DNA of 64,000 bases from Clostridiales bacterium (GTDB lineage: Bacteria > Bacillota > Clostridia > Christensenellales > Aristaeellaceae). The notes under the pieces were generated by a model. It was not told the DNA's origin and did no database searches. It worked only from the letters and a program-made list of their open reading frames with translations. Made by a program: the position numbers and the translations under genes. The DNA is taken from NCBI GenBank assembly GCA_024695415.1, contig JAILIE010000065.1, forward strand, positions 62,001 through 126,000. Reading direction: 5' to 3'. Position 1 is the stretch's first letter; the number at the start of each line of letters is the position of its first letter. Below, piece after piece: positions 3,599 through 47,728 of this stretch.

Positions 3599-5272
3599 TT
3601 ACTCCACTGAAATCAGGTAATAGTACAGCGGCTGGCCGCCGTTATGGCATTCGACGTCGCAGAAATCGTACTCCGCCTCGATTTCCGCGGCGAGGCTCTT
3701 CGCGTCCTCCTCGCTGACGTCCGCGCCGAAGTAGACGGTGATCAGCTCGTCGTCTTCGGTGACGATGCTCTTCATCATGTCCATCACGACATCGCGGACC
3801 GAGGAGCCGGAGAACTCAATCTGGCCGTTGTGCAGGCCGATGATATCGCCCTGCCTGATCTGGATGCCGTTGTATTCGCTGTCCCGGATCGCATAGGTCA
3901 CCGTGCCGGTTTTGACATGCTGGGAGGCTTCCTCCATGCGGCGGACGTTCTCATCCACCGGCAGGTCGTTCTGGAACGCGATGGCCGCCGCGATTCCCAT
4001 GGCCACATTCTTGGTCGGGATCACGCGGACGTCCTTCTTGCTGAGCTCCGCCGCCTGGTTGGCCGCGAAGATCACGTTGCCGTTGTTCGGAAGGATGAAC
4101 ACGCATTCGGCGGGAACCTGGTTTACGGCGCCGAGCAGGTCATCCACCGCGGGATTCATGGTCTGGCCGCCCTCCACGATCCGGTCCACGTTCAGGTCCT
4201 GGAAGAACTGGGAAAAGCCGGCACCGAGGGAAACCGCGACAAAGCCGTATTTCTTTTCCGGAGCGGCTTCGGCCGGGGCTTCAGGCTCCGCGGGCGCTTC
4301 CTCCGGCGCGTTTTGCGCCTCGAGCTCGCGCTTCATGGCGGCGAGGTTGTCGACGCGGATCTCGGAAAGCTCGGCAAGCTCGATACCGTATTCCATGGCG
4401 GAACCGGGATTGTCGGTATGGACATGGACCTTCGCCTGGGTCAGGTCGCCGGAGACGGTCACGTTGTCACCGATCCGGTTCAGGCGGCGGCGGAAGGAAT
4501 CCAGGTCATGCTCGTCGCAGTCTTCCCGGAAATGGCTCAGCGTGAAGTTCACACAGTAGGTATAGGTCAGGTCCCGGGTCAGGTCGTGGCAGTCGTCGGA
4601 AGCGGCGGAGAAATCGTTCTCCATGCCGGTTTCCGTCAGGCTGATATCCTCCCCGCGCAGGACGGCGGCGTAACCCTGGTAAATCAGCATGAGGCCTCGT
4701 CCGCCGGAATCCACGACGCCCGCCTGCTTCAAAGCAGGCAGCATGTCGGGGGTCTTCTTCAGGATCGCCTCGCCGCTCTTGAGGATGACGCTGAACAGCT
4801 TGTCAAAATCCTCCGGATCGCGGGAAGCCTGTTTCTGCGCGTCTTCCGCGACGACGCGGGCCACTGTCAGGATCGTGCCTTCCTTCGGCTTCATGACGGC
4901 TTTATAGGCCATTTCCGCGCCCTTGGCGAGGGCCGCGGCGAACTGGACGGGCGTGATCTTGTCGACGCCGTTCAGGGACTTGGCGAAACCGCGCAGAAGC
5001 TGGCTGGTAATGACGCCGGAGTTTCCGCGGGCGCCCCGCAGCGCGCCCTTGGCCAGGGCGTTGGCCGCCTCGTCTGCGCGCAGGAATTCCTTGCTGTTGA
5101 TCTCGCGCGTCGCGGACTGCATGGTCAGGGTCATATTGGTACCGGTATCGCCGTCCGGAACGGGGAAAACGTTCAGGGCGTCCACCGCCTCCCGGTTCCT
5201 TTCCAGGAGGGCGGTCCCGGCAACCGCCATATCGCGAAGCAGCAAACCGTCAATCGTTTTAAACTGTATCAA
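3599..5272 (-). CDS. fakA: Fatty acid kinase subunit FakA (DhaL/DAK2-domain protein, YloV)
   Basis: A 557-residue protein with an N-terminal DhaL kinase domain, in which DGDTGTNM at about 40-47 supplies the Mg-ATP aspartates. The RGARGNSGVI segment and a C-terminal FakA domain follow. Between them is a low-complexity Ala/Pro/Glu linker (about residues 320-340). FakA phosphorylates fatty acids held by a FakB (DegV-like) partner so that exogenous fatty acids enter phospholipid synthesis. No fakB is in the window. It lies between asp23 and recG on one transcript, as in many Bacillota (yloU-yloV-recG). Confidence 0.9.
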   Translation of the reverse strand: MIQFKTIDGLLLRDMAVAGTALLERNREAVDALNVFPVPDGDTGTNMTLTMQSATREINSKEFLRADEAANALAKGALRGARGNSGVITSQLLRGFAKSLNGVDKITPVQFAAALAKGAEMAYKAVMKPKEGTILTVARVVAEDAQKQASRDPEDFDKLFSVILKSGEAILKKTPDMLPALKQAGVVDSGGRGLMLIYQGYAAVLRGEDISLTETGMENDFSAASDDCHDLTRDLTYTYCVNFTLSHFREDCDEHDLDSFRRRLNRIGDNVTVSGDLTQAKVHVHTDNPGSAMEYGIELAELSEIRVDNLAAMKRELEAQNAPEEAPAEPEAPAEAAPEKKYGFVAVSLGAGFSQFFQDLNVDRIVEGGQTMNPAVDDLLGAVNQVPAECVFILPNNGNVIFAANQAAELSKKDVRVIPTKNVAMGIAAAIAFQNDLPVDENVRRMEEASQHVKTGTVTYAIRDSEYNGIQIRQGDIIGLHNGQIEFSGSSVRDVVMDMMKSIVTEDDELITVYFGADVSEEDAKSLAAEIEAEYDFCDVECHNGGQPLYYYLISVE

Positions 5273-5326
5273 AGGATTATTCCTCCGTATGCACTTTCAT
5301 TCACAGGGGCATCAGGCCGGATCTGG

Positions 5327-5677
5327 TCAGATGCGGATCCCCTCGACCGAGATGCTGACTTTCCGCACTTTGACACCGGTCATGCTTTCCAGCTTGTAGC
5401 GCACGGTCTCAACAATCGTCTTGCAGACTTCCGAAATGGAAATCCCGTACTCCACGATAATGAACAGATCGACGTCGAGCATATCGCCGACGTTGCGGAT
5501 CTGGACACCCTTGGACAGGTTTTCACGGCCGAGCCACTCGACAATCCCGTCTGTAGCGCGCTTACCGGACATCGCGACGATGCCGTAGCACTCCAGAGCG
5601 GCATAACCGACCACTTTCATCATGACATCCTCAGCGATAAAGATGGTGCCGTATTCGTTCTTCACTTTGCATTCCAT
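5327..5677 (-). CDS. Asp23/Gls24 family envelope stress protein (YloU-like)
   Basis: A 116-residue Asp23/Gls24-family protein: EYGTIFIAEDVMMKVVGYAALECYGI at the N-terminus and the VRYKLESMTGVKVRKVSISVEGIRI ending are hallmark segments. Staphylococcal Asp23 is a cell-envelope-associated protein induced by alkaline stress; YloU-type homologues sit upstream of fakA. This copy is the first gene of the asp23-fakA-recG unit and has a strong promoter about 70 bases upstream. No transmembrane segment is visible, so envelope association would need a partner protein. Confidence 0.88.
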   Translation of the reverse strand: MECKVKNEYGTIFIAEDVMMKVVGYAALECYGIVAMSGKRATDGIVEWLGRENLSKGVQIRNVGDMLDVDLFIIVEYGISISEVCKTIVETVRYKLESMTGVKVRKVSISVEGIRI

Positions 5678-5742
5678 ACGTTTCGCCTCCTTGCATCCAC
5701 CGCGGCGCGTCAGATACGCCGCAACCGAAAATGGACTATAAT

Positions 5743-5771
5743 ATTATACGGGATTTCACAGGGATTATCAA
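5743..5771 (-). promoter_or_regulatory. Sigma-A-type promoter of asp23-fakA-recG
   Basis: Read on the minus strand there is TTGATA, a 17-base spacer and TATAAT, about 65 bases before the asp23 start codon. Near-consensus vegetative promoter. Confidence 0.8.
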
Positions 5772-5832
5772 GCCTTTTCACAAGCCGGATCCCCCCGCGC
5801 GGCGGAACGGGCATGAATGACGGCGAAAAACC

Positions 5833-5861
5833 TTGACAAGCGCCGGCGTTTTGAACATAAT
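5833..5861 (+). promoter_or_regulatory. Sigma-A-type promoter of the tyrosine T-box operon
   Basis: TTGACA at 5833-5838, a 17-base spacer, and CATAAT at 5856-5861. Transcription would begin a few bases before the T-box stem I, exactly where a T-box leader needs it. Confidence 0.85.
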
Positions 5862-5865
5862 AGGT

Positions 5866-6096
5866 TATCAGCAATGAAGGGAAGAGTATCCCGGTTCCCG
5901 GCTTTCAGAGAGCTTCCGTAAGGTGCGAGGAAGCAGCCGCCCGCGGAGAAGTACATCCCGGAGCCACCCTCCGAAAGCGCGCGCGCCGGTAGGCGGGGTC
6001 CGGTCCGCCGGTTACAGCGTGAAATGAGAGCGCGGTTTCATCCGCGCTGAACGGGAGTGGTACCGCGGCTCTTCGCCTTCCGAAGAGCTTTTTTAT
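5866..6096 (+). ncRNA. T-box leader riboswitch, tyrosine-specific by its specifier codon
   Basis: The leader carries the conserved T-box sequence GGAGTGGTACCGCGG at 6054-6068 and an AGTA motif near the 5' end of stem I. In the descending strand of stem I, GAAGTACATCCC places UAC (5952-5954) as specifier codon, meaning tyrosine; the GGGA/TCCC pairing that closes the stem supports this placement. A terminator follows the T-box bulge sequence. Uncharged tRNA-Tyr would stabilise the antiterminator and allow transcription of the downstream aminotransferase and tyrS. The identity agrees with tyrS being in the operon. Confidence 0.9.
6068..6094 (+). terminator. T-box regulated intrinsic terminator
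   Basis: GCTCTTCG, a five-base loop CCTTC, CGAAGAGC, then six T residues. The 5' arm directly follows the CCGCGG end of the T-box sequence, the expected arrangement for mutually exclusive antiterminator and terminator structures. Confidence 0.9.
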
Positions 6097-6120
6097 TTTC
6101 CTTTTTCAGGAGGGACCGGA

Positions 6121-7302
6121 ATGAAACAGTCAGACATTCAGTTCGCCCATCGTTTTGACCAGGTGACCGGCAGCGCCATCCGCGAGATCTTCAAGGTGAT
6201 CGCCCAGCCGGGCATGATTTCCTTTGCCGGCGGCAATCCGTCCCTGGACGCGCTGCCGGATCAGGTTTGCGCGGATATCGCGGAGCACGTGCTGCGGGAA
6301 AACGGCAAGCAGATCCTGCAGTACGGCGCGACGGAAGGCTATCCCGCCTTCCTGGAGAGCCTGCACGAATATGTCAACAAGCAGCTGAACTGCGAAGTTC
6401 CGGCGGTCCTGCCTGTGACGGGCTCCACGCAGGCGATGGACCTTCTGTGCAAGGCGCTGATCGATCCGGGTGACGTGGTGCTGGTGGAAAATCCCTCTTT
6501 CCTCGGCAACCTGCAGTGCATGAAGCTGTACCAGGCGAAGCTCGTCCCGGTGGAAAGCGACGGGGACGGCATCCTGACGGACGACCTGGAGGCGAAGATC
6601 AAACGCTTCCATCCGAAGATGCTCTATACCATCCCCACCTTCCAGAATCCTTCCGGGAAGACGCTGCCCGCGGACCGGCGGCAGAAGATCGCCGAGCTGG
6701 CCAACCGGTACCATATGGTGGTGGCCGAGGACGATCCCTACCGCGACCTGCGGTATGACGGCCTCCCCCTTCCCGCCATCAAGTATTTCGACGAGGACGG
6801 CTGGGTCATGTTCCTGGGCAGCTTCAGCAAGATTATCTCCCCGGGGCTGCGCGTGGGATATATCGCCGGCGATCCCGGCGTGATCCGGAAGTGTACGGTC
6901 GGTAAACAGTCCACGGACGTCCATACGTCCAACCTGAACCAGGCCATCGTGGACCGCTTCCTGCGGGACAACCTGCTGCCCGATCATATCCGCTCCATCT
7001 GCGCCGACTACGGCAAGAAAATGCGTCTGATGCTGAACAAGCTCGACGAGTTCCCGGAGGGCGTGAAGCACACTTCCCCGCAGGGCGGCCTGTTCATCTG
7101 GGCGGAGCTTCCGGAACACATCAACGCCCGGAAACTGCTGGACCTGGCCATTGCAAGAAAGGTCGCCTTCGTCCCCGGCACGCATTTCTGCGTGGACGGC
7201 GGGCACGAAAACACGCTGCGGCTGAATTTTTCCAACAGCACGGTGGATCAGATCATCACGGGAATGGATATCCTGAATGAACTGGTTGCCGCCATGAAAT
7301 AA
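6121..7302 (+). CDS. PLP-dependent aminotransferase, fold type I (probably aromatic/multi-substrate)
   Basis: A 393-residue class I/II aminotransferase of the MocR-like/LysN group. Visible features: SFAGGNPS near the N-terminus, [18 protein letters not shown], and the PLP-lysine motif [15 protein letters not shown]. These enzymes transfer amino groups between 2-oxo acids and aromatic, branched or 2-aminoadipate-type substrates, and sequence alone does not fix the substrate. It sits directly behind a tyrosine T-box and 19 bases before tyrS, so it responds to tRNA-Tyr charging. The last step of tyrosine synthesis from 4-hydroxyphenylpyruvate is therefore the favoured role (inference). Confidence 0.85.
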
Positions 7303-24068: not shown

Positions 24069-25208
24069 ATGGAGATTTTCAACTGCTACGCCACGGCGGC
24101 ATTCGGGCTGGAAGGGCTGGTAGCCGGTGAACTGCGCGCGATGAACTTACCCGATGTCCGCGCGGAAAACGGCGGCGTCCGTTTTTCTGCCGCCATGGAG
24201 CAGGTGTTCGAAAGCAACCTTTCCCTCCGCTGCAGCGACCGCGTGATGATCATCCTGGCCGAGGGAAAATGCCTGTCCTTTGAGGAGCTTTTCCAGCTGG
24301 TCCTTTCAGTTCCCTGGGAGAAATACATGTCCGGTACGGAATCCATCGACATCAGCGCGAAATGCGCCCGCAGCCGGCTGATGAGCCCGCGGGACTGCCA
24401 GTCGATCACCAAGAAGGCGGTAATCGAGCGCCTGAAAAAAAAGACCGGAAGAAAGGTGTTCCCGGAGAACGGGCCTTCCTTCCCGGTGCTGGTATCCATT
24501 CATTCCGACGCCGTCAAAATCCTACTGAATACATCCGGCGACGCGCTGTCCCGGCGGGGTTACCGGACCTGGAACGGTGAGGCCCCCCTGAGGGAAACGC
24601 TGGCCGCGGCCCTGGTGGACCTGAGCCCATGGAAGAGCGGCATGCCGCTTTACGACCCCTGCTGCGGTACGGGCACCATCCTGATCGAGGCGGCGTGGAA
24701 AGCGGCGAACCGCGCGCCGGGGCTGACCCGGTCCTTTGCCATGGAGCGTTTTTCCTTCGCGGATGCCGCCGCGTTTTCAGCCCTCCGGAAGCGGAAGGAA
24801 CAGGAATGCGATTTCAGCCGGATCCGCGGAATCGGCGGCGGTGATATCGATCCGGAAGCGATCCGCCTGGCGGAACTTCACCTGAAGCAGTCCGGGACCT
24901 CCGGCCTCATTCCGCTTCGTAACGAACCGTTCCGGCAGGCGTCCATGACGGAAGCGCACGGTGTATTTATCTGCAATCCGCCCTACGGCGAGCGGCTCAG
25001 CGACCGGGAAAACTGCCGGAAACTGTACCGGGAGCTGCGGGAGATGTGGGCGCGGCATCCCGGCTGGTCCTTCTGCGCGATCTCTTCCGACCCGGCCTTT
25101 GAAAGGGCCTTCGGAAAGAAGGCGGACCGCCGGCGCCGGATCTATAACGGCCGCCTGGAATGCAATTACTATGTGTATTACGGTTCCGGCAAAACAGAAT
25201 CAGACTGA
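24069..25208 (+). CDS. THUMP-domain class I RNA methyltransferase (RlmL N-terminal/YpsC-like)
   Basis: A 379-residue protein with an N-terminal THUMP RNA-binding domain (about 1-155) and a Rossmann methyltransferase domain. The latter has YDPCCGTGTILIEAA and the catalytic FICNPPYGERL, typical of N2-guanine methylation of 23S rRNA (G2445 in E. coli RlmL). The E. coli C-terminal RlmK part is missing, as usual in Bacillota. GTACGGAGGGACGGCA precedes the start. The last 31 bases overlap the convergent YkuD-CapA gene. Confidence 0.9.
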   Translation: MEIFNCYATAAFGLEGLVAGELRAMNLPDVRAENGGVRFSAAMEQVFESNLSLRCSDRVMIILAEGKCLSFEELFQLVLSVPWEKYMSGTESIDISAKCARSRLMSPRDCQSITKKAVIERLKKKTGRKVFPENGPSFPVLVSIHSDAVKILLNTSGDALSRRGYRTWNGEAPLRETLAAALVDLSPWKSGMPLYDPCCGTGTILIEAAWKAANRAPGLTRSFAMERFSFADAAAFSALRKRKEQECDFSRIRGIGGGDIDPEAIRLAELHLKQSGTSGLIPLRNEPFRQASMTEAHGVFICNPPYGERLSDRENCRKLYRELREMWARHPGWSFCAISSDPAFERAFGKKADRRRRIYNGRLECNYYVYYGSGKTESD

Positions 25209-27604
25209 ATTCTGTTCATAATTGCCGTATACTGTTCCCCTTCGGCAGGAACCGGATGGAAGTCGTTGACCTTTGCGTCCGCGGCGGAGCTGGTCCGGAT
25301 CGGAACAGGGCGGACCTCCACGCGGGGGGACTCCCCGTCAAAGGTGATCAGCGCCTGGAGCAGCATGGCGTCATAATCCTTCAGGCTGATGGTTCCGCCG
25401 AACACCAGGTTCCCCAGGCTGTAAACGATCGGAACCCCTTCATAATACTCAATTCCCTGGACAATATGCGGATGATGGCCGATGACCAGGTCCGCCCCGC
25501 TGCGGACGCAGGCGCGGGCCATCGCTTCCTGCTGCGCGTTATGGTTCGGGTCGTATTCCGTGCCCCAGTGGCACTGGTACACGATCAGCTCACACCCCAT
25601 TTCCCGGAGGGCGCGGATATCCCTTTCCACAACGCCGGGATCCTCGCGATACGTGGTTTCCCGGCATCCGCCGAACCCGATCAGGTGCCCCCGTACGCTG
25701 ACCGCCGCGGGATGCTCCGGACCGCACCAGTTTACGACGCCTTCCAGCGCGCGGATGGTGGATTCATATCCTTCCGGACCGTAATCGATGGTATGGTTGT
25801 TGGCGGTGTTGACGAGCTCGACCGAGCCTTTCGTCAGGATTCCGGTATATTCGGGCAGGCCGCGGAAACGCCATTCCTTTTTTTTGTCCTCCCCGTTCGC
25901 GTTGTCCTTCAGGACGCATTCCAGGTTGACGCTGGTCAGGTCGTCCGAGGCAAAATACGCCTGCAGGCCGGAGAAAGGATATTCCATTCCGTATTTATCC
26001 AGGTAGGCGAAGAGGCTGTCGCTGCGGCGGAAATAGCTTTCCCGGCCGCCGAGCACCGCGTCGCCGCCGAAGGTCATAAGCACCTGGTTCTCCCTCCGGA
26101 GCCGGGGATCGTCAAACAGCTCGTCCCGGACCGCGGGCAGGGACTGTTCCGCAGCCGTCCCGTCGAGGATGGCCATCTGCCCGCTGCGCTGGACGGGATC
26201 GTCGAGGATGATCACGCGCGTATGGTACGGGATATGCGTCCAGAGCCAGTAGGCGTTCAGCCCCGACGCGGCGCCGGGAAGCGCCTGGACCCGCACGCAG
26301 GCATGGGAGGCCTTTGCGCCCAGGAATCCCTCCCCTTCCGAAAACAGCTTTTTTCCGTTTCCGTGGCGGTACGGGATCTGGTGAATCAGGTTTCCGCCGT
26401 CATACTGGATGACGTAATCGTACCGGTTTCCGTTGGTGGAATAATCGACGCGGTGCAGGCCGGTCAGGAAGCTGCCGGCGGCGGTTTCCTGGTACAGCGC
26501 GCCTTTTTCCATGCGCCCGGTACTGACCATCAGGGTTTCAATCATTTTTCCGTTTTCATAGACCGAAAGCGTCTGGCTGACCTTGTCGATCAGGATTCCG
26601 TAGCGGCCGGACGGATATTCCACCTTCAGTTTCGCCCGGGGAACCCACCCGGTCACCTCCTCCCCCTGCTCATGGTTCCAGGCATGGACGAGGACCCATT
26701 TTTCCCCGATCTCCAGGACTTCCAGCGCCTGCGTCTGACCGTGCAGCGTACCGAGCACGCGGGATTCGCCGTCCGGCTCCTCATATACCCGCTGGTGGTC
26801 CGTATACCCGATGTCGACGACCACGGACGGACGCATCATCATTTCCCATATTTCCTCGTCCGACGCGTTTTCCGGGGGCATGACGCTTCCCGTAAGGAAG
26901 ATATCCTGCGCGGCCGGGGCGTCCGCGGTGACGTTCAGGCTGAATTCCGCGCTGTAGCCGGGGCTCGAGATTTCATACACGCGGACCCGGTAGCGGCCCG
27001 GCTCGATCTCCGCGTTTCCGACGACCTGGCGGAAGGTCATATGCGTAATCCTTCCGGTTGATACGGTACGCCGGAAAACATATGCCGGTTCTCCGGCGCC
27101 TTCGGGCAGGAACTCCACGCTGACGGTGCCGTTCTGGATGGTTTTCAGCTCCATAAACCAGTCGGCGGGCGCAGCGAGGGAAACGGTATCGGCGGATTCC
27201 AGCGCGAACTGGAGGGCCTGGGCCGTGTATTCCACCGGAGAATCGAAGGACAGGTTGTATTCCTTTCCGGAATCGCCCGCAAGACGGCAGCGGATATGGT
27301 AGGAGATGGTGGTAAGGCGTTCCCGGTTGTATCCGCATCCGTCCCATTCAATCCGGGTTGTTCCCGCGGGAACAACCCGGGTCAGCACACGGAAAACCGA
27401 GATATCGTTGCAGACGGAAATGGTCAGTGTACCGCTTTCCGGAGCGTCGACCTCAAAAGCGTTCTGCGCGAACGAAATGATTTTCCCGATCCTGCGGACC
27501 GAAAAGCCGGATGATTCCTCCCCGACGCATGCGGCGGAGACGATAAGCAGTGAAACCAGAAGAATACAGCCGGCCAGGTAAGCGCGCGCTCTTCCGTGAC
27601 GCAT
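25178..27604 (-). CDS. Exported fusion: SH3-like, L,D-transpeptidase (YkuD) and CapA-type metallophosphatase
   Basis: An 808-residue secreted protein. An N-terminal signal (about 7-25, ending SAAC, possibly a lipoprotein) is followed by a beta-rich region (about 30-260). An SH3-like segment comes next (about 268-328, ending GWVPRAKL). A YkuD L,D-transpeptidase domain (about 334-470) has the catalytic SHACVR at 433-438. A CapA/PgsA-like domain runs from about 508 (LMTFGGDAVLGG through GHHPHIVQGIEYYEGVPIVYSLGNLVFGG). YkuD enzymes make 3-3 peptidoglycan crosslinks; CapA-like proteins act on poly-gamma-glutamate or capsules. ATG 27604 is chosen for its GGGGGGAGAAACAG ribosome site and the signal peptide. 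The combination on one chain is unusual. Confidence 0.85.
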   Translation of the reverse strand: MRHGRARAYLAGCILLVSLLIVSAACVGEESSGFSVRRIGKIISFAQNAFEVDAPESGTLTISVCNDISVFRVLTRVVPAGTTRIEWDGCGYNRERLTTISYHIRCRLAGDSGKEYNLSFDSPVEYTAQALQFALESADTVSLAAPADWFMELKTIQNGTVSVEFLPEGAGEPAYVFRRTVSTGRITHMTFRQVVGNAEIEPGRYRVRVYEISSPGYSAEFSLNVTADAPAAQDIFLTGSVMPPENASDEEIWEMMMRPSVVVDIGYTDHQRVYEEPDGESRVLGTLHGQTQALEVLEIGEKWVLVHAWNHEQGEEVTGWVPRAKLKVEYPSGRYGILIDKVSQTLSVYENGKMIETLMVSTGRMEKGALYQETAAGSFLTGLHRVDYSTNGNRYDYVIQYDGGNLIHQIPYRHGNGKKLFSEGEGFLGAKASHACVRVQALPGAASGLNAYWLWTHIPYHTRVIILDDPVQRSGQMAILDGTAAEQSLPAVRDELFDDPRLRRENQVLMTFGGDAVLGGRESYFRRSDSLFAYLDKYGMEYPFSGLQAYFASDDLTSVNLECVLKDNANGEDKKKEWRFRGLPEYTGILTKGSVELVNTANNHTIDYGPEGYESTIRALEGVVNWCGPEHPAAVSVRGHLIGFGGCRETTYREDPGVVERDIRALREMGCELIVYQCHWGTEYDPNHNAQQEAMARACVRSGADLVIGHHPHIVQGIEYYEGVPIVYSLGNLVFGGTISLKDYDAMLLQALITFDGESPRVEVRPVPIRTSSAADAKVNDFHPVPAEGEQYTAIMNRIQSDSVLPEP
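27353..27380. repeat. Perfect 28-bp palindrome inside the YkuD-CapA gene
   Basis: The half-site CCGGGTTGTTCCCG is followed immediately by its exact reverse complement with no spacer. It encodes residues around VVPAGTTR of the fusion protein. No recognised site matches it. Confidence 0.9.
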
Positions 27605-27663
27605 CTGTTTCTCCCCCCTTCCATCCCGGTCAGCGTAACAGGAAACTCCCTGTTCGTCAATGC

Positions 27664-27692
27664 TTGACAAAGGCTGATCAGCGATTTATAAT
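27664..27692 (+). promoter_or_regulatory. Promoter of tRNA-Leu
   Basis: TTGACA, 17-base spacer, TATAAT, 13 bases before the tRNA. Confidence 0.92.
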
Positions 27693-27705: not shown

Positions 27706-27787
27706 GCGGTCGTGGCGGAATCGGCATACGCGCACGTTTGAGGGGCGTGTCCGGCAACGGGTACGGGTTCAAGTCCCGTCGACCGCA
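27706..27787 (+). tRNA. tRNA-Leu (anticodon GAG)
   Basis: An 82-base type II tRNA: acceptor GCGGTCG/CGACCGC, anticodon stem CACGT/GCGTG with GAG at 27740-27742, a short variable arm (TCCGGCAACGG region) and T arm ACGGG-TTCAAGT-CCCGT. CCA is not encoded. Confidence 0.95.
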
Positions 27788-27797
27788 CATCGGGAAT

Positions 27798-27880: not shown

Positions 27881-27888
27881 AGAGGGAG

Positions 27889-28230
27889 TGGAGATGAGGG
27901 GATTTGAACCCCTGTCCGAAGATCCATCCGACAGACCTTCTCCGAGCGCAGTCCGTGATTTGATTTCCCCTGGCGGACCGTCCGCGGACAGACTGACCGG
28001 AGGGTAGCTTCATGATTACGGATTCAGCGGCAAAGCTTAGGCTGAACTCGTTCCCTGCGATAATGACGCCGGGAACCTGATCCGCAGGAAATCAGGGCCG
28101 ACGCGCGGCATTAAGCCGCGAAAGCGTAATCGCTGTTGTCAGTTATTGTTTTTCCCCGTTGTTACGCAGTACAGGGGCTGCGGCTCGCTGATCCATCCTC
28201 CGATATCCCCGTCGAAACCAGATCATCCCC
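27889..28230 (-). ncRNA. ssrA: Transfer-messenger RNA (tmRNA, ssrA)
   Basis: A 342-base tmRNA on the minus strand. The 5' end GGGGATGATCTGGTTTCGACGGGG and the 3' end GGGGTTCAAATCCCCTCATCTCCA form the tRNA-like domain (acceptor GGGGATG/CATCTCC). The internal tag frame and several pseudoknot-like GC helices lie between. It rescues stalled ribosomes together with SmpB by adding a degradation tag. CCA is not encoded. It starts 16 bases after the smpB stop, with no strong promoter between, so it may be processed from an smpB-ssrA transcript. Confidence 0.97.
28111..28155 (-). other. tmRNA tag-peptide reading frame
   Basis: With GGA as resume codon the frame reads GKTITDNSDYAFAA and ends in TAA; the non-templated Ala precedes it. 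The hydrophobic YAFAA ending is the ClpXP/FtsH recognition type. The resume codon is inferred by analogy with (A)GKT... tags of Bacillus. Confidence 0.8.
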
Positions 28231-38712: not shown

Positions 38713-38991
38713 ATGCGTCTGGACAAATATCTGAAAGTATCGAGAATCATCAAGAGACGGACCGTGGCAAATGAAGCCTGCGCGTCCGGCCGGGTTACGC
38801 TGAACGACCGCGTCGCCAAGCCCGGCGCCGAGGTCAGACCGGGCGACCGGCTGACCATCCGCTTCGGTGAGCATATCGGCCAGTATGAAATCGTCAGCGT
38901 CGCGGAAACCGTCCGGAAGGACCAGGCTTCCGCCATGTACAGGATCATCAGCGAGGACGCGGGCATGTCCGCGGAACGGAATCAGGAATGA
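38713..38991 (+). CDS. rqcP: RqcP (YabO/Hsp15-like S4-domain protein)
   Basis: A 92-residue protein that is almost entirely an S4 RNA-binding domain: [32 protein letters not shown]. In Bacillus RqcP binds the 50S subunit and, with RqcH, drives alanine tailing of stalled nascent chains. No rqcH is in the window. It overlaps ispDF by four bases. Confidence 0.92.
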
Positions 38992-40166
38992 AAACAATCG
39001 TCATTATCGCCGCCGGCGGATCCGGGAGCCGGATGAACGCGGGAATCAACAAGGTGCTCCTTCCCCTTTGCGGGAAAACCGTCCTGCGCAGGAGCATGGA
39101 GGCTTTTGCCGTCCATGCGGACCGGATGGTCGTGACGGCGCGTCCGGAGGACATGGAAGCGGTCCGGCGGGAGATCGAATCCGCTCCCCTCCCTTTTCCG
39201 GTCGTCGTGGCGGAAGGCGGCGCCAGCCGGCAGGAATCGGTTTTGAACGGGCTGCGGGCCGCGGATTGCGAACCGGCGGACGTCGTCATGGTCCATGACG
39301 GGGCCCGCTGCATGGCGGACGCCGATATGATCGAACGCGTCCTCGGGTCCTGTCTCCGCTCCGGAAGCGGGGTTCCGGTCCTGCCGGTGACGGACACCAT
39401 CAAGGAATGCGGGGCGGACGGAACCGTCCTCCGCACGCCGGACCGTTCCGTCCTGTTCAAGGCCCAGACCCCCCAGGCCTTCCGGTACAGGGAACTCCTG
39501 GAGGCTTCTGAACAGGCCGCCCGGGACGGATTCACCGCCACGGACGACGCTTCCGTGATGGAGCATGCCGGATTCCCCGTTCACACTGTGGAAGGTTCCC
39601 CCCGGAACATCAAGCTGACCAGCCGGGAGGACCTGATGGAGGCACAAAGAATGATTGAGCAGCAGGTACCGGTTTTCCGTGTCGGGCACGGATATGACGT
39701 GCACCGCCTGGTTCCTGACCGGAAGCTTGTTCTTTGCGGCGTCGATATCCCGTGGGAAATGGGCCTGCTGGGCCACAGCGACGCCGACGTGGCGCTGCAC
39801 GCCCTGATGGACGCCATGCTGGGCGCCGCGGCCCTGGGAGACATCGGACAGCATTTCCCGGATACGGATCCCGCCTACCGGGGGATCTCCTCGATCCTTC
39901 TCCTGAAGGAAACGAACCGGATCATCCGGGAAAAGGGATATTCCGTTGTCAACGCGGATATAACCATTGCCGCCCAGAAGCCGAAGCTCCTTCCCCATAT
40001 TCCGGATATGCGAAAAAACGTTGCCGCCGCCCTCGGCTGTCCGGTGGATTCGGTCAGCGTGAAGGCGACGACAACGGAAAAACTCGGGTTTGAGGGACGG
40101 ATGGAAGGCATATCCGCGCAGGCGGTCTGCCTGATTCAGGGAACAGCGTCGGTCAGCAGTGACTGA
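38988..40166 (+). CDS. ispDF: Bifunctional IspD-IspF (MEP pathway)
   Basis: A 392-residue fusion. Residues about 1-225 are IspD ([30 protein letters not shown]), making CDP-methylerythritol from MEP and CTP. From about 229 it is IspF ([43 protein letters not shown]), making the cyclodiphosphate. Zinc ligands Asp/His of GYDVH and the SDAD loop are intact. With dxs at 58-60 kb, two steps of isoprenoid precursor synthesis are in this window. The 3' end overlaps convergent protein A by 31 bases. Confidence 0.95.
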
Positions 40167-41269
40167 TACGGTTCCGGAAGTGAACTGAAAATGTTCAGCA
40201 GCAGCAGGGAGGTCGATAATTTGATTTCCCTGCTGATTTTTTCTTCGTCGGCTTCCGCCATGGAATCCAGGCGGACCGTCCGGATACCTTCCGGCGCTTC
40301 ATATGAAGAATCGTCCTTTGTTACGGTAACCCGGCAGGAAGGCAGGCTTTCATCCCCGAAGCCGACGGAGCACTGAAGGATCGTATCCGGCGATTCGCCG
40401 AAGAGCGTACCGGAAGCGGTGATGCCCGGTGCCCCGTTTGCCGGCTCGAAAGAATATTCGAACGCGATATCGCTTCCGTTTTTTCGGACGGCCAGGCTTT
40501 CCCGGGAAATCGTGGAGGAGGCGTCAATGGAGGGGTATCCCTGGCCGAGATCGTCCGCGTAAAGCATTTTATCGGCATCCAGGCCGTCGGATCCGCGGTT
40601 TACGGACCAGTACTCATAGTAGGTTTTCCCTTCGGCGCCGTAACCGGCGATCAGGGTGATATGTTCCGGCGAAAGATCTGCGGAGCAGGTCAGGATCGCG
40701 CTGTCCGCGTCATAAACCGTCAGGGAGGCGTATTCTCCCCCGTCGTACAGGGCGGCTTCACACATGAGGCGGCGCTGCGGCAGGGACCGGAGGGAAACGG
40801 TGGACGGGCCCAGCAGGGACTTCAGCCCGGAAAGGTTTTCCGGAACGGAATAAAAGAAAGCGAAATCGTACACCGAGAAACGAATCACTTCCCTTTCGGA
40901 AGCGGATCCGAAAACGTCCCCGGCAAAACGGCCGGTTTCACGCTCGGATCCCAGGAAGTCCGCCAGCTCGCGGAAAGACGCGGTCAGGATCCCGCTTACA
41001 TCCGTTTCCATCAGGGACGCGATCCGGCCGGTCAGGCTGAAGGGGCTGCTGTCCGTGACCTGATAATCGTCGGACAGGCAGAAACCCGGGAAAAGATCCG
41101 AAAGAATGCGGATCGAGCTTTCGTCCAGGAAGAAGTCCATGCCGGCCCGGAAATGGTAGTCCCCGGCGGAAAAATCCGCTTCGGTTTTGTAATGCTCAGC
41201 TGCCAGCGCGGCCGGAAGGCCGGAAAGAAGCAGCAGGACGGACAACAGGACGCAGACCAGTTTTCTCAT
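40136..41269 (-). CDS. Exported protein A of unknown function
   Basis: A 377-residue protein with a clear signal peptide ([21 protein letters not shown], cleavage about residue 23). The rest is a mostly beta-rich, Ser/Asp/Glu-rich mature domain ending in [23 protein letters not shown]. No catalytic motif or named domain is recognised. ATG 41269 follows GGAGGTACTGCCGA and overlaps the stop of gene B. It is the last of three exported proteins in a row (C, B, A). The helical C-terminal LPxxxxxLLxD pattern resembles that of protein C, suggesting distant paralogy (inference). Confidence 0.75.
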
Positions 41270-42756
41270 TCGGCAGTACCTCCTTGGTCGTTCTCGTCCG
41301 CTTCCCGGACCCGGATGAGACTTCCGGCGGCATTCAGGAGGATTCCGGACAGGGCGGCCGCCTGACCGTCTTCATCCAGGCTGCTCCAGGATACGGCGCC
41401 GGCGGGATCGAAGGGGACAAAGGGCCAGGTGGAAGATGTTTTGACCTTGCCTTCGACCGAGAAGGAAAGATCGCTGCCGGTCCAGGACGCGGTGACCGCG
41501 AGCGTGGTCTGCGTGGTCCTTCCCGGCTTTCCGGAATAATGCAGGACGCACTCGATATCCACGGGCTCAAAGCGGTTGAACAGGTCTTCCGACACATTTT
41601 CCGGAAGGATCGACGGATCATAAAGGGCACGGACAGTGTAATGCTGGATTTCGTGCTCCTTTCCGGTGTTTTCATCGGTGTTGTTTTCCTGGGTGCGGCT
41701 GATCTGGAGACGGAGGGCATAGTTGCCGTCCTTTTTCTCCGGATCGGTCAGGTCTGCGTGGGCGACCTGGATCACCGTGTCATATTCCTTCTGCGCAAGG
41801 AGTTCTCCGGCGTTCTCCGGAAGGACGAAAACCCAGATCTGCTTTTCGCCGGACAGCGTCCAGCTGGACAGGCCGTTTTCACTCACCACGCGAAGCCGGG
41901 AGTATCCGGTCTGGGCGGCGTCGAGCGGAAGCACCATCTCCGTGGAGAAGGTCTCCCCCAGGGCGGAAACCGCCTTCCGGAACTCGATATTCCCGGGAAG
42001 GCTGATGGAGCCGATGACGTCCGCGTAATAATGCAGGAGCGCCGGATTCATGTAATACTGGGTCTGTTCTTCGGTCATATGGGGGAAAAGCAGGCGGAGC
42101 AGGTCCTCGTCGCCCGCGGCGGTTTCAACCAGGGAAAGAATCTGTTTTTTGACGTCTTCCGGGGGAATGGAACATGAAAGGATCATGCTCTGGACGGAGC
42201 CGTTTGTCTGCGTGGACGGATCCGAGAAATAGGAATTGATCCATTCGGTCAGTTTCTTCTCGTATTCTTCGAGGACGGGATTCCAGCTGCCGCGGCTTTC
42301 GGAGGACATGGTTGCCAGGGAAAGAAACGCGGAAGCGATGGAAGGATTCTCATACGCGGTGCCGATTTCGGATTCCAGCAGGGAGGACAGTTCGGGCAGC
42401 TGGTATACCGTACCCTGCAGCAGGCTTCCGGAAAGGAAGAGGCCCGTATCATTCCGGTACAGTTCCACGGTGTTGACCCGGTTTTCCGACTCATCGCTCT
42501 GGTAAACCACCAGATGCCATTCACCGGAGGACATGTTCCGGAGAATATTGAACGGAGCGTTCCCGAAAGCAGCTAAAAACGGATTCTCCGCGGAATCCGC
42601 GTCGGTCGTAATCACAAAGGAGCCTTTCAGGCCGTTCTGGTCATTCTGGAGCTGACGGTCCATTTTGACAGGCAGCGTCACTTCTTCCGCCATTCCGGGA
42701 AGAAGCGCGGCAAGCAAAGAAAACAGAATCAGGAAACTGATGATTCTTTTCATCAT
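41266..42756 (-). CDS. Exported protein B of unknown function
   Basis: A 496-residue protein with a signal peptide (RIISFLILFSLLAALLPGMAEE). The mature part has a helical middle (about 130-260) and a beta-rich second half (about 260-460). No cysteine pattern, lipobox or catalytic signature is visible and no family is recognised. Start preceded by GAGGTGAACC. It lies between C (23 bases upstream) and A (four-base overlap), so the three are almost certainly produced together at the cell surface or outside. Confidence 0.72.
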   Translation of the reverse strand: MMKRIISFLILFSLLAALLPGMAEEVTLPVKMDRQLQNDQNGLKGSFVITTDADSAENPFLAAFGNAPFNILRNMSSGEWHLVVYQSDESENRVNTVELYRNDTGLFLSGSLLQGTVYQLPELSSLLESEIGTAYENPSIASAFLSLATMSSESRGSWNPVLEEYEKKLTEWINSYFSDPSTQTNGSVQSMILSCSIPPEDVKKQILSLVETAAGDEDLLRLLFPHMTEEQTQYYMNPALLHYYADVIGSISLPGNIEFRKAVSALGETFSTEMVLPLDAAQTGYSRLRVVSENGLSSWTLSGEKQIWVFVLPENAGELLAQKEYDTVIQVAHADLTDPEKKDGNYALRLQISRTQENNTDENTGKEHEIQHYTVRALYDPSILPENVSEDLFNRFEPVDIECVLHYSGKPGRTTQTTLAVTASWTGSDLSFSVEGKVKTSSTWPFVPFDPAGAVSWSSLDEDGQAAALSGILLNAAGSLIRVREADENDQGGTAE

Positions 42757-42779
42757 GGTTCACCTCGCGGTTGGTTTGG

Positions 42780-44129
42780 TCAGTCAGCCAGAATGAGGTC
42801 GGTCGCGGTCGCCGGCAGGTCTTTCAGAAGATAATCCAGGTCTTCCGGGGGAAGATGGATCAGCATCCGGAGCAATTCCGCCGACATCCTGTCGGTGAGG
42901 GTTTTCTCCGCGTCTCCTTCCGCGGTGATGATCTCCCGGCGGGATACCGGCAGCGGATCACAGGAGGAAACGCTGAAAACAAAACGCAGATGCTCCGTTT
43001 CTATTTTATCCAATTCATGCGTAAATTCAAGAGTTCCCTTGTATTCTTCGGGACCTTCCTGACACATGGAAAGGGAGACGGCGGAAGAGGATTTTACGCT
43101 GCCGGAAACGACGGATTCGGTAATGGATCCCGTGACGTTTTCCTGTTCGGATTCCAGCAGGATATCCTTCTGGATCCGCGTCCGGACCCGCTCCCGGACC
43201 CGATCCTTTTCAATATGGCATTCCAGGCGCTCCGGCGCGTCGGGAGCGAAGGACCATTCCCTTCGGACCGTGTAGTTGTCCCGGTCGGACCCGCGGGTAA
43301 CCGGGGTCGTCAGGGTCAGCGTATCGCTGAGGGAAACGTCGCCGCGCAGGCATTTCCAGTCCAGGTTGACGTTCCGCAGGTGATCCTCGGACTCTCCCGC
43401 CACGCCGGTGTAATTGACCTTCATCAGCCGGTCGTTCTCATCCGCCAGGAACGTGAAACGCTGCCGTCCGGAAAACACGAAGCCGGAAAGGAAGCCGGCG
43501 GCCCGCGGCCAGTCCGTTTCCCCTTCGTTCAGCCGGCCGGTAAGCTCCGGGAAGGTCTCATCCGTGAAGGACAGGGCGCTGCGCTGAACCGCGGTGCCGT
43601 AATCCCTGAACTTCGTCTGGATTTTGCTTCGGGAAGCGGTTTGGGCGGTATCGAGGTACATCCGGGAAAAGCAGGAGTAGAATTCGTCCAGCAGGAGAAT
43701 AACCTGTTCGCACTCCCCGATTCTCTCCAGCATATCCGTGGACGGATCGGAAAAGAAGCTTTCCCCCTCGGGATAGCAGTAAAGATGATCAGGATCCGCT
43801 GAAAACGCGTACAGCGTCTTTCCGTCCTCTTCGAACACCGTGACGGAAGGCCCCGGTATCCCGTCCGCTTCCAGGGAAATCTTCAGGACGCTTCCGTCCG
43901 TCCGGATCCGGAAGACGATATGTTTCATCAGGCGGTTCAGGCTTTCCGCCCGTTCCACGGACAGCTCGGGTCGCTTCAGGATTTCCGCGGTGAGCGTCAT
44001 CTCCTTCGCGGAAAACGATTCGGCGAAAAACGTGTCCCGGAGCTCCGTAAGTCCGCTGGCGCCAGCCGAACCAAAGAGAAACGCGAATAGAAGCAGCAGC
44101 GCGAAAAAGCGCCGGATTCCTTTGTCCAT
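42780..44129 (-). CDS. Exported protein C of unknown function
   Basis: A 449-residue protein. ATG 44129 is chosen because it starts at a signal peptide (GIRRFFALLLLFAFLFGSAGA) and forms a TAATG junction with dusB; the track's longer frame lies inside dusB. The mature part alternates helices and beta strands and ends ELLRMLIHLPPEDLDYLLKDLP. No known domain is recognised. First of the C-B-A exported trio, translationally coupled to the tRNA-modifying enzyme DusB, which is an odd pairing. Confidence 0.73.
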   Translation of the reverse strand: MDKGIRRFFALLLLFAFLFGSAGASGLTELRDTFFAESFSAKEMTLTAEILKRPELSVERAESLNRLMKHIVFRIRTDGSVLKISLEADGIPGPSVTVFEEDGKTLYAFSADPDHLYCYPEGESFFSDPSTDMLERIGECEQVILLLDEFYSCFSRMYLDTAQTASRSKIQTKFRDYGTAVQRSALSFTDETFPELTGRLNEGETDWPRAAGFLSGFVFSGRQRFTFLADENDRLMKVNYTGVAGESEDHLRNVNLDWKCLRGDVSLSDTLTLTTPVTRGSDRDNYTVRREWSFAPDAPERLECHIEKDRVRERVRTRIQKDILLESEQENVTGSITESVVSGSVKSSSAVSLSMCQEGPEEYKGTLEFTHELDKIETEHLRFVFSVSSCDPLPVSRREIITAEGDAEKTLTDRMSAELLRMLIHLPPEDLDYLLKDLPATATDLILAD

Positions 44130-45097
44130 TATGGTTCCTCCTCCCGTTCCCGGCCGGCTTCGTTGAAAAACCCGTCCAGCATCCGGAATACTTCCGCCGG
44201 ATCGCCGCAGCGGTTGATCTCCGCGCGCAGCCGGGCGGCGCCGCGAAGGCCGTGGATATACCATCCGATATGTTTCCGCATCTCCCGAACGGCGATGTGT
44301 TCCGGCCTGGATTCGAGCATCATCCCGTAATGCAGGCGGATCACCTCGTACCTTTCATCCAGGGTGGGTGCTTCCGCGGTTCCGCCGTTCATGTCGGCGG
44401 CGGCCTGCCGGAATATCCACGGATTGCCCAGCGCTCCACGGCCGATCATCAGGGCGTCCACGCCGCTCATCCGGGCGAAGCGACGGGCGTCCTCCGGGGT
44501 AAAGATATCCCCGTTGCCGATCACGGGAATGGAAACACTCTGTTTCACACGGGCGATGATGTCCCAGTCCGCGGCGCCGCTGTACTGCTGTTCGCGCGTG
44601 CGGCCGTGGACCGTGATCTCCCGGATGCCGGATTCCTCAGCCATTCGGGCGAAATCCAGCACATTGATATGATCCCGGTCCCAGCCGATCCGCATCTTGA
44701 CGGAAACCGGAAGCCGGACGGCGCGGACCGTTTTCTCCATCATGCGGCGCGCGATAACCGGCGTCCGCATCAGGCCGCTTCCTTCCCCGGAACAGGCGAC
44801 TTTCCGGGCGGGACAGCCCATATTCAGGTCGATCCCGTCGTAGATGCCCAGCTGTTCGATCCGGGCGGCCGCTTCCGCCACCGTATCCGGATCCCTGCCG
44901 AAAAGCTGGAGGATCAGCTTTTTCTCTTCGGGCCCCCGGCGCATCAGTTCCCGGGTCGCCGCCTGTCCGGGAGCGCAAAGGTATCCCATTGCGCTGATCA
45001 TTTCCGTATAGGCCGTGCCGCATCCGAAGGAAAAGCAGATCGTCCGGTAGACATGGTCGGTTACACCGCACAGCGGTGCCAGGCGGATATCAATCAT
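44129..45097 (-). CDS. tRNA-dihydrouridine synthase (Dus family)
   Basis: A 322-residue TIM-barrel flavoenzyme. LAPLCGVTDHVYR, DLNMGCPARKVACSGEGSGLMR (catalytic Cys in the GCPA loop region), VSVKMRIGWD, ITVHGRTREQQYSG and VIGNGDIFTPEDA follow the Dus pattern, closest to DusB. It reduces specific uridines in tRNA D-loops using FMN and NADPH. It overlaps the GH127-like gene by eight bases and gene C by one. Confidence 0.93.
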   Translation of the reverse strand: MIDIRLAPLCGVTDHVYRTICFSFGCGTAYTEMISAMGYLCAPGQAATRELMRRGPEEKKLILQLFGRDPDTVAEAAARIEQLGIYDGIDLNMGCPARKVACSGEGSGLMRTPVIARRMMEKTVRAVRLPVSVKMRIGWDRDHINVLDFARMAEESGIREITVHGRTREQQYSGAADWDIIARVKQSVSIPVIGNGDIFTPEDARRFARMSGVDALMIGRGALGNPWIFRQAAADMNGGTAEAPTLDERYEVIRLHYGMMLESRPEHIAVREMRKHIGWYIHGLRGAARLRAEINRCGDPAEVFRMLDGFFNEAGREREEEP

Positions 45098-46799
45098 ACT
45101 GCCTGTCCACCGGGAAAGCGGAAATACGGCAGGGCGTCATGGCGTAGGGATAGAGGGGAATATCATGGATTTCGCCGGTTCCGGCGGGAAGCACCGGAAT
45201 ATCGTCCGGGATTCCGTCGCTGTTCGGCCAGCGTGTCAGGCGGCGGAAGGGACAGAAAACCTTTCCGTCCTGAAAGCGCGGAGCGCCTGCGAGCGCGTAG
45301 CGGTAGTCGGTATCCCGGACATCCAGGACCATCAGGCGGTTCCGGACGAACACGGCTTTCCCCCGATGATGGATGTCGCGGACGATGACGCGGTCTCCCT
45401 GGCGGAAAAGGATGGTATCCATGTTCTTCCATTCCCGGCTGATCCGGATCCGTCCCCCGCTGCCGGGCACAAGGCGGTCCGACAGGGAAACCTGCTCGCT
45501 GTTTCCGGCACCCTTGAGAAGGATGTCGGCGGTCTCATCCGCGGAACAGAACAGGTTCAGTTCCACGGAAACGCCGGACTTTGTCCGGAAAACCGCGGAA
45601 TGGTCGTCCGCCTGGATGACCAGGGTGCTTCCCGAAACGGAAACGGAGTAACGGCCCGGCAGCAGGTAATTGAGGAACAGCGCGCTGTCGGATACCGTCA
45701 CCGCGTTCCTGTACGCGGCCGAAGCGGCGCGGGCCAGTCGGGACAGAAGCACCACATTCCGCATCTGGCCCGCTTCCGGGTCAAAGCCGCGGGCGGAAGA
45801 AGCAGCGGAAATGATATTGACAAAACGGAAGCCGCTGCCTTCGGGATTGCGGAGACAGTCGGAAAGGGCGTTGAAAACCAGGACCGTCAGTTCGTTCATG
45901 GCCCACGGCTCCGCGGAAATCATGGCCTGCGCGGCCATCGCCTCCACCCAGGCCGCGGCAGCGCCGGTATGAATCCCCTGGCTGGTCCTGTCACCGCCGA
46001 GGAAGACGTTCGCGGTCGTACCGCCGCAGACGGCGCTGTGGGCATGGGACAGAAAATCCCATGCCTTCCTTCCGGCCGTCAGCTCCTGGCCGTTTCCGCT
46101 GAACAAGGCGGAATACGCGGTGTAACGGACGCTGTCCGCCAGGATCTCCGCATGATTGGAAAGATACTGCACGGACGGGAAATCGATATCACGGTAATCC
46201 CCCGCGGCAAAGAGGGCGGCGGTTTCCTCCTTCATCTCCGGCAGGTCCAGGGGCTGGCGCTGACGGAACTGCTGCAGGATGGTCGTCCAGTCGAGGGCGG
46301 CGGAACGAAGGCGGACACACAGGCGAAGGACGCCCTTCAGGCCGGTGATCAGGTAAAAGCGGATCAGGAATTCCATCAGATCGGCCGGCTGGATCCGGAT
46401 CATCCGATGGCCGGAAACGGCGTCCCATTCTGCTTCCGTGAAGCGGCACCAGCGCGCCAGGCGTTTCAGGACGTTCCGGTCGGTATTGTATTCGTATACC
46501 GACAGCGCGGCCCGCGCGGCGGAGAGCTGTTCCCCAAAGAAGCCGGGAAGGGATCCATCCTCCGTTTCTGCCAGGGCGTCCATGATCCGGCGGAAAACCG
46601 GTTCTTCCGCCGGACGGTCCTTCAAAAGGCACGCAAGTGAAAACAGCCCTTCCCAGGATACCGGATGATCGATGGATCCCTCCAGGTGCCGGTAGAGAAG
46701 GTGGAGTTCATTCATATCGCTCCGGACCGTTCCGTTGGTGAGCGCGGAATGAAGCGGACGGACGAGCGGCGCACGGCTCAGGAATGCTTTCTGGGGCAT
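45090..46799 (-). CDS. GH127-like (DUF1680-type) protein, apparently without the catalytic cysteine motif
   Basis: A 569-residue soluble protein without signal peptide, mostly helical for about 400 residues and then beta-rich. The segment HAEILADSVRYTAYSALFSGNGQ through KAWDFLSHAHSAVCGGT parallels the (alpha/alpha)6 barrel of GH127/GH146 arabinofuranosidases. The equivalent of their glutamate/cysteine ETxETC loop reads SQGIHTGAAAAWVEA, so catalysis of that kind is doubtful. The C-terminal beta part (RYSVSVSGSTLVIQADDHSAVF) fits the beta-sandwich of that family. ATG 46799 follows GGGAGGTTTTTCC; the track extension is rejected. First gene of a unit with dusB, C, B, A. The family call is tentative. 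Confidence 0.45.
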   Translation of the reverse strand: MPQKAFLSRAPLVRPLHSALTNGTVRSDMNELHLLYRHLEGSIDHPVSWEGLFSLACLLKDRPAEEPVFRRIMDALAETEDGSLPGFFGEQLSAARAALSVYEYNTDRNVLKRLARWCRFTEAEWDAVSGHRMIRIQPADLMEFLIRFYLITGLKGVLRLCVRLRSAALDWTTILQQFRQRQPLDLPEMKEETAALFAAGDYRDIDFPSVQYLSNHAEILADSVRYTAYSALFSGNGQELTAGRKAWDFLSHAHSAVCGGTTANVFLGGDRTSQGIHTGAAAAWVEAMAAQAMISAEPWAMNELTVLVFNALSDCLRNPEGSGFRFVNIISAASSARGFDPEAGQMRNVVLLSRLARAASAAYRNAVTVSDSALFLNYLLPGRYSVSVSGSTLVIQADDHSAVFRTKSGVSVELNLFCSADETADILLKGAGNSEQVSLSDRLVPGSGGRIRISREWKNMDTILFRQGDRVIVRDIHHRGKAVFVRNRLMVLDVRDTDYRYALAGAPRFQDGKVFCPFRRLTRWPNSDGIPDDIPVLPAGTGEIHDIPLYPYAMTPCRISAFPVDRQYD

Positions 46800-46830
46800 G
46801 GAAAAACCTCCCGGTTCAGATAATATGTAA

Positions 46831-46859
46831 ATTATACAGGAAATGGATAATGAACACAA
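46831..46859 (-). promoter_or_regulatory. Promoter of the GH127-like/dusB/C-B-A unit
   Basis: Minus strand TTGTGT, 17-base spacer, TATAAT, about 30 bases before the GH127-like start. Confidence 0.7.
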
Positions 46860-46873
46860 GCAAAGCGTCGGAT

Positions 46874-47728
46874 TCAGGGGACGGACAGCATTTTGACCGC
46901 CAGGTCCGCCGCTTTCTTCAGTTCCCCTGAAGCGGAGGCTGAAATCTGAAGGAGTTCCGGCAGCAAATCCTTCCGGTTCATGGAGGCGGAAAGGACGCAG
47001 CACTGAATCAGGATTCTCTGCCGCCGGGCGTAATTGGCGCCGATCAGCTTTTTCAGCTCATCCGTCCGGCCGTCCCGCATGATGCCGGGCAGGTCCATCG
47101 AAAGCGGCTCCCCGGAAGCCGGCGTGTTCTTCGGGCAGCAGGCTTCGCAGTCGTCGCATCCGATCAGGCGGTTTCCCATGCGGCGGACGATGTCCTCCGG
47201 CGGGCACTGTCCGTTCAGCATCCAGTAACGAAGGCATTTTTCCTTCACAAAGCCGGAATCGGTAATGGCACCGCCCGGACAGGCCCGGGCGCAGGCGCGG
47301 CAGTTTCCACAGGAAACGGGATGCGGCTCTTCGGTCAGCTCGTCCGTCACCGGGAACAGTTCGTCCGAAGTCAGGACCTGGATATGGAACCGGCTTCCGA
47401 ACGGGGAAAGATAGGACAGGGTATTCCGGCCCCTCTCCAGGAACGGAAGGTGGTCCAGGACCGATTTGATATGAATCTGGTTGGAGAGAATCATGTCCGT
47501 TCCGAGGGAACGGCACTCCTCAGCGAACTTCCGCGCGGCGTAGTAGGCCTGCTGGGAAACCGGATAATACGGATGGATTACCGCGCCGTCGGCATCGCCG
47601 GAAGCGGCCCGGTAGCTCATAAAAGCGAGAATCAGCCGGTTCCGGCCTGTTCCGGCTTTCCGGCCGTCCAGGACGGATACGCGGTCGAAGCCAAGCTGGT
47701 ACAAACGATTCAGAATATCGGTCATCAT
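46874..47728 (-). CDS. QueG-like double [4Fe-4S] cluster protein (epoxyqueuosine reductase family)
   Basis: About 284 residues with two cluster motifs: SCGNCRACARACPGGAI and CDDCEACCPKN, in the spacing of QueG. The preceding YLSPFGSRFHIQVLTSD and the C-terminal HEAT-like LLQISASASGELKKAADLAVKMLS also fit. QueG reduces epoxyqueuosine to queuosine in tRNA using cobalamin. Start MMTD at 47728 fits family N-termini but has no Shine-Dalgarno: it begins seven bases after the T-run of the upp terminator. The upstream ORF extension crosses that terminator and is rejected. It is shorter than typical QueG. Confidence 0.6.
   Translation of the reverse strand: MMTDILNRLYQLGFDRVSVLDGRKAGTGRNRLILAFMSYRAASGDADGAVIHPYYPVSQQAYYAARKFAEECRSLGTDMILSNQIHIKSVLDHLPFLERGRNTLSYLSPFGSRFHIQVLTSDELFPVTDELTEEPHPVSCGNCRACARACPGGAITDSGFVKEKCLRYWMLNGQCPPEDIVRRMGNRLIGCDDCEACCPKNTPASGEPLSMDLPGIMRDGRTDELKKLIGANYARRQRILIQCCVLSASMNRKDLLPELLQISASASGELKKAADLAVKMLSVP

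Follow-up and report, generated by a model that had tools for sequence, protein, structure and literature searches.

Does the joining of a cell-wall crosslinking enzyme and a CapA-type metallophosphatase fold in one polypeptide tie two reactions together, or do the two halves share an address and little more? The question is raised by a gene in the 64,000-nucleotide stretch of Clostridiales DNA analysed here (the window). Its product, P0001, had been described in a preliminary description as an exported chain with an SH3-like part, a YkuD transpeptidase bearing the motif SHACVR and a complete CapA-like domain. The CapA/PGA_cap domain is very widespread and we know of no biochemistry for any member of the YkuD-CapA fusion group. 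The fusion places a CapA enzyme physically beside a wall enzyme and makes the role of CapA testable.

A predicted exported chain with two complete active sites

Pfam and alignment confirmed that P0001 is, as read from its sequence, a single exported chain in which both active sites are complete (Table 1). The YkuD model (PF03734) matched with an E value of 1.4e-9 and 39.2 bits against a cut-off of 23.4, while PGA_cap (PF09587) matched residues 511-736 (E 2.2e-48, 165.4 bits, cut-off 27) over positions 3-254 of the 255 in the profile, which is its full length. The SH3_3 match in P0001 fell below the cut-off of 27 (E 0.0067, 17 bits) and reached 24.6 bits in the relative L013. FlgD_ig scored above its cut-off in the N-terminal part of two relatives, L013 and L032, and on this basis the N-terminal 200 or so amino acids of P0001 are read as Ig-like. 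The gene starts with the ATG at position 27604, which is preceded by a strong Shine-Dalgarno-like sequence. The export signals of P0001 and its homologues are type I-like; anchoring as a lipoprotein was considered and rejected because the cysteine that closes the signal region is not conserved in the homologues, nor is a lipobox.

Table 1. Features of the fusion gene and its product in the window
Feature	Position	Strand	Basis
YkuD-CapA fusion gene (P0001), 808 aa	25178..27604	-	ORF and Pfam
Shine-Dalgarno-like sequence AAGGGGGGAG, 6 nt 5' of the ATG	27611..27620	-	sequence reading
Signal peptide, residues 1-26 (helix 4-26 in the model)	27527..27604	-	homologue comparison and model
Ig-like beta region, FlgD_ig-like, residues about 34-228	26921..27505	-	Pfam matches of relatives and model
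SH3-like domain, residues 272-324	26633..26791	-	Pfam match below cut-off, relatives, model
YkuD L,D-transpeptidase domain, residues 335-466	26207..26602	-	Pfam and alignment
Variable linker, residues about 470-506	26087..26197	-	homologue comparison
CapA/PGA_cap metallophosphatase-fold domain, residues 507-803	25196..26086	-	Pfam, alignment, model

The AlphaFold model of the whole protein (mean pLDDT 80.9, pTM 0.53) has good local confidence in the signal helix, the beta domains, the SH3-like part and CapA. The YkuD core at residues 364-391 is poorly modelled, and the placement of the two halves and their active sites is left unfixed by the model. Modelled alone, the CapA domain gave a pLDDT of 91 and a pTM of 0.91.

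No catalytic residue is missing from either domain of P0001 in the alignment. The YkuD site consists of H408 and S433-H434-A435-C436-V-R438, and 34 of 36 fused homologues retain all of H408, H434, C436 and R438. The CapA site comprises D515, E562, N603, H604, D607, H679, H711 and H713, within the motifs GD, NLE, NNHxxD, HWGxEY, GHHPH and SLGN; all eight residues are kept in 32 of the 36. The exceptions include one homologue that lacks H713 only (L041), three close relatives in which the CapA site is dead, and one more distant relative with a dead YkuD.

P0001 resembles the YkuD-family L,D-transpeptidases of Firmicutes, such as B. subtilis YkuD and C. difficile Ldt, in its H...SHxCxR motif, its predicted export and its putative SH3-like companion domain, but differs from them in its C-terminal CapA domain. 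It has SHAC where SHGC is commoner among YkuD transpeptidases; both forms occur in the fusion-bearing family. With CapA, PgsA and YwtB (PF09587) it shares a complete PGA_cap domain with its motifs and a predicted extracellular location. Unlike those proteins, it is fused behind a transpeptidase, is encoded by an isolated gene and has no PgsC partner that we could find.

Distribution of the fusion

The fusion is real and conserved. Of 150 genomes sampled from the same family, 34 carry it, a carrier being counted by a full-length match or by two matches that lie in one frame; most of these were confirmed from the DNA, and two (G056 and G133) by match positions and frame length alone. Further fusion loci occur in metagenome-assembled genomes of uncultured Clostridia, many of them labelled ruminant gut. 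The same architecture in many independent assemblies led us to reject an assembly chimera or chance as its source. Outside the family, no match covering both halves was listed for a class sample of 292 genomes or a phylum sample of 398, the two overlapping slightly. The pairing had been called uncommon, and within these samples it was confined to one family; the searches score only a few candidates in each genome and may miss a match that is split. A full-text literature search for PGA_cap and YkuD together found no paper, and a 2025 review of L,D-transpeptidases gave no hit for a metallophosphatase or for fused domains. As far as we have searched, the fusion is an undescribed combination of two known families.

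Genomic context

The fusion gene stands alone among housekeeping genes, its neighbours in the window being tRNA-Leu, tmRNA (ssrA), smpB, an rlmL-like gene, CdAMP_rec, holB and PSP1. Close relatives share the gene order at this locus, with smpB and tmRNA upstream, a convergent gene for an RlmL-like methyltransferase and then genes for a cyclic-di-AMP receptor, holB and PSP1. At its 3' end the fusion gene shares 31 bp (25178-25208) with the 3' end of the convergent rlmL-like gene. A conserved functional operon was rejected because the flanks consist of tRNA, tmRNA and housekeeping genes, and the context therefore gives no hint to function.

Inactivation and loss of the CapA half

In relatives, the same locus presents the CapA half in three states: intact, dead at the active site (three species) and cleanly deleted at the domain boundary (four species). 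In L010 (genome G132), L015 (G066) and L025 (G112) essentially all CapA ligands have been lost while the fused YkuD is intact; the dead domain is full-length in the first two and shortened in the third. In L053, L054, L055 and L061 the transpeptidase stands alone at this locus, the protein ending where YkuD ends and the RlmL-like gene following directly. A tree of the transpeptidase part (IQ-TREE) joined the three dead-CapA rows in one clade (support 100/98), sister to the four CapA-deleted rows (98/94), with both groups nested among intact fusions. By this nesting, the inactivation or loss of CapA took place inside a single branch of the genus. Replacement of CapA by domain swap was considered as an explanation for the divergence of L010, L015 and L025 and rejected; decay agrees better with the disappearance of the metal ligands, with the grouping of these copies in a single clade and with the deletions in the rows next to it.

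These copies bear on whether the CapA half might be mainly a binding or structural module whose catalysis is unimportant. Such a role would agree with the retention of a dead CapA in all three relatives, with the fact that pN is still lower than pS in L010 and L015, and with L119 (positions 3659-6829, 1056 aa), which occupies the orthologous position in a different genome of the family and keeps both domains with both sites degenerate; that genome has a second fusion, L029, which is intact. Against it stand the eight site residues, complete in P0001 as in most homologues, and the pattern of the dead copies, which form one clade beside relatives that delete CapA and show raised nonsynonymous change. 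In the pair L010/L015 the ratio of CapA to N-terminal dN was 1.14 versus 0.49-0.89 in eight intact pairs, a relative measure only, since synonymous sites are near saturation. This looks like decay, and we regard a mainly binding or structural role as unlikely, while giving it more weight than the other alternatives below.

The loss can also run the other way. In L023, the more distant relative with a dead YkuD, H408 is replaced by Gln and SHxC by GVGS, and CapA is intact. Each half has thus been disabled or lost in relatives that keep the other, a pattern that weakens any obligate coupling of the two reactions. The proposal that a polymer-related step is tied to peptidoglycan crosslinking is therefore only partly upheld: the two sites are complete in one chain, but the halves look like separable modules and not like an obligate two-step catalyst. 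Other copies may buffer the loss of the fused one, as the genomes checked contain three to eight PGA_cap matches each; the source genome encodes four further PGA_cap proteins besides P0001. Relatives in which CapA is dead or deleted, YkuD is dead, or neither site is intact make up a natural mutant set, most of it at one locus.

In a tree of CapA domains, the fused ones grouped with a few stand-alone domains found only in the family, and a further 40 stand-alone CapA domains lay elsewhere. The tree required two label changes, and this topology fits one or two fusion events plus splits. Stand-alone CapA genes, in G091 and elsewhere in the family, have varied surroundings that indicated no common substrate.

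Poly-gamma-glutamate as a candidate substrate

PGA_cap is the family of PgsA and CapA, and the preliminary description had suggested a link to poly-glutamate or capsule. P0001 might accordingly couple the synthesis or release of poly-gamma-glutamate to peptidoglycan, with CapA acting as in PgsBCA and YkuD anchoring the chain. PgsC is needed for poly-gamma-glutamate. PgsC/CapC (PF14102) does exist in the family, in 9 of 100 genomes, but not one of the 19 of these genomes that carry the fusion has it, the source genome (80% complete) included, and we therefore reject poly-gamma-glutamate as a likely substrate of CapA. Neither a capsule operon nor pgsB or pgsC lies at the locus, and with four other PGA_cap proteins in the source genome the Pfam name is uninformative. 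The absence of PgsC largely refutes the poly-glutamate link, which we now hold to be very improbable. The substrate may instead be an envelope polymer other than poly-glutamate.

Hydrolase or epimerase

A fold search with the CapA model returned MslH as the best match, followed by Mre11, a manganese nuclease. MslH (PDB 8gq9) was also the only significant sequence match to the CapA half in the PDB. It is a calcium-dependent lasso peptide epimerase with the calcium ligands E44, N87, H259 and H261 and the dyads H88/D91 and H295/D11 (PMC10406935). That the nearest solved relative is an epimerase and not a phosphatase argues against reading the CapA half as a hydrolase. Seven of the eight catalytic or ligand residues of MslH correspond in P0001: D515, E562, N603, H604, D607, H679 and H713 match D11, E44, N87, H88, D91, H259 and H295, the first pair being set by motif position. 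PgsA, moreover, shifts the D/L ratio of B. subtilis poly-glutamate, which is 75/25 with pgsA and 5/95 without it (PMC6029982). The CapA half could then be a peptidyl epimerase like MslH, and perhaps like PgsA, that inverts an amino-acid centre, whether of the stem peptide or of an attached peptide polymer, beside the transpeptidase by which this is joined.

The eighth residue speaks for a different chemistry. The MslH ligand H261 has no His counterpart in P0001, and H711, the third letter of GHHPH and invariant among intact members, stands where MslH has Gly and matches a second-metal ligand of YmdB. According to the authors of the MslH study, the two-metal hydrolase pattern was lost for epimerisation (PMC10406935). 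The ligand set of P0001 looks like that of a YmdB-like two-metal phosphodiesterase: with the YmdB/Mre11-type calcineurin-fold enzymes it would share D, E, N and three His ligands plus a His/Asp dyad, the YmdB residues being taken from PMC10406935 and the assignment of the YmdB histidines to GHHPH being our own reading. It differs from these enzymes in lacking a significant sequence match and in its location, and presumably in its substrate. The model for MslH-type epimerases (NF038314) scored 40.6 bits against a cut-off of 700, over 43 residues only, and the predicted extracellular wall context of P0001 is unlike that of MslH, a precursor-peptide enzyme in a RiPP cluster. An epimerase is thus, in our judgement, a poor prospect. 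Poorer still is a more specific form of it, in which CapA would invert a residue of the stem or of a peptide polymer that the attached YkuD then can or cannot use; were it true, epimerisation would be a stereochemical switch on crosslinking. From the fold and the ligands only, we infer that the CapA half may be a phospho-ester hydrolase.

A model for P0001

We favour, by a modest margin over its being wrong, a reading in which P0001 is a wall-associated, secreted L,D-transpeptidase from a Christensenellales-like family of clostridia and gained its CapA-type metal hydrolase, of calcineurin fold, in one or two events inside that family. The type I-like signal peptides support this reading, as does the extra PG_binding_1 domain that two long fusions (L031 and L032, 965-971 aa) carry between YkuD and CapA, in a linker rich in Pro and Thr. 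The signal peptide would export the chain and the Ig-like and SH3 parts would hold it in the wall. There Cys436 of YkuD would take the third residue of the peptidoglycan stem as an acyl-enzyme, which would be resolved into 3-3 crosslinks or the tethering of a partner. CapA, using a pair of divalent metals together with the H604/D607 dyad, would hydrolyse a phospho-ester in an envelope polymer or its precursor near the site of crosslinking. The two halves would be modules at one address, with CapA dispensable, and not a compulsory two-step catalyst.

Other features of the window

On the minus strand, the region 38985-47003 contains five long ORFs (338-637 aa) for which Pfam gave nothing at E 0.001; in DNA this rich in GC they may be frames antisense to genes on the plus strand, or else genes that are uncharacterised. 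The tmRNA gene (27888-28230, minus strand) directly follows smpB and encodes the tag DNSDYAFAA. A perfect TTGACA-17-TATAAT promoter at 27664-27692 on the plus strand precedes tRNA-Leu(gag) (27706-27788) and points away from the fusion gene.
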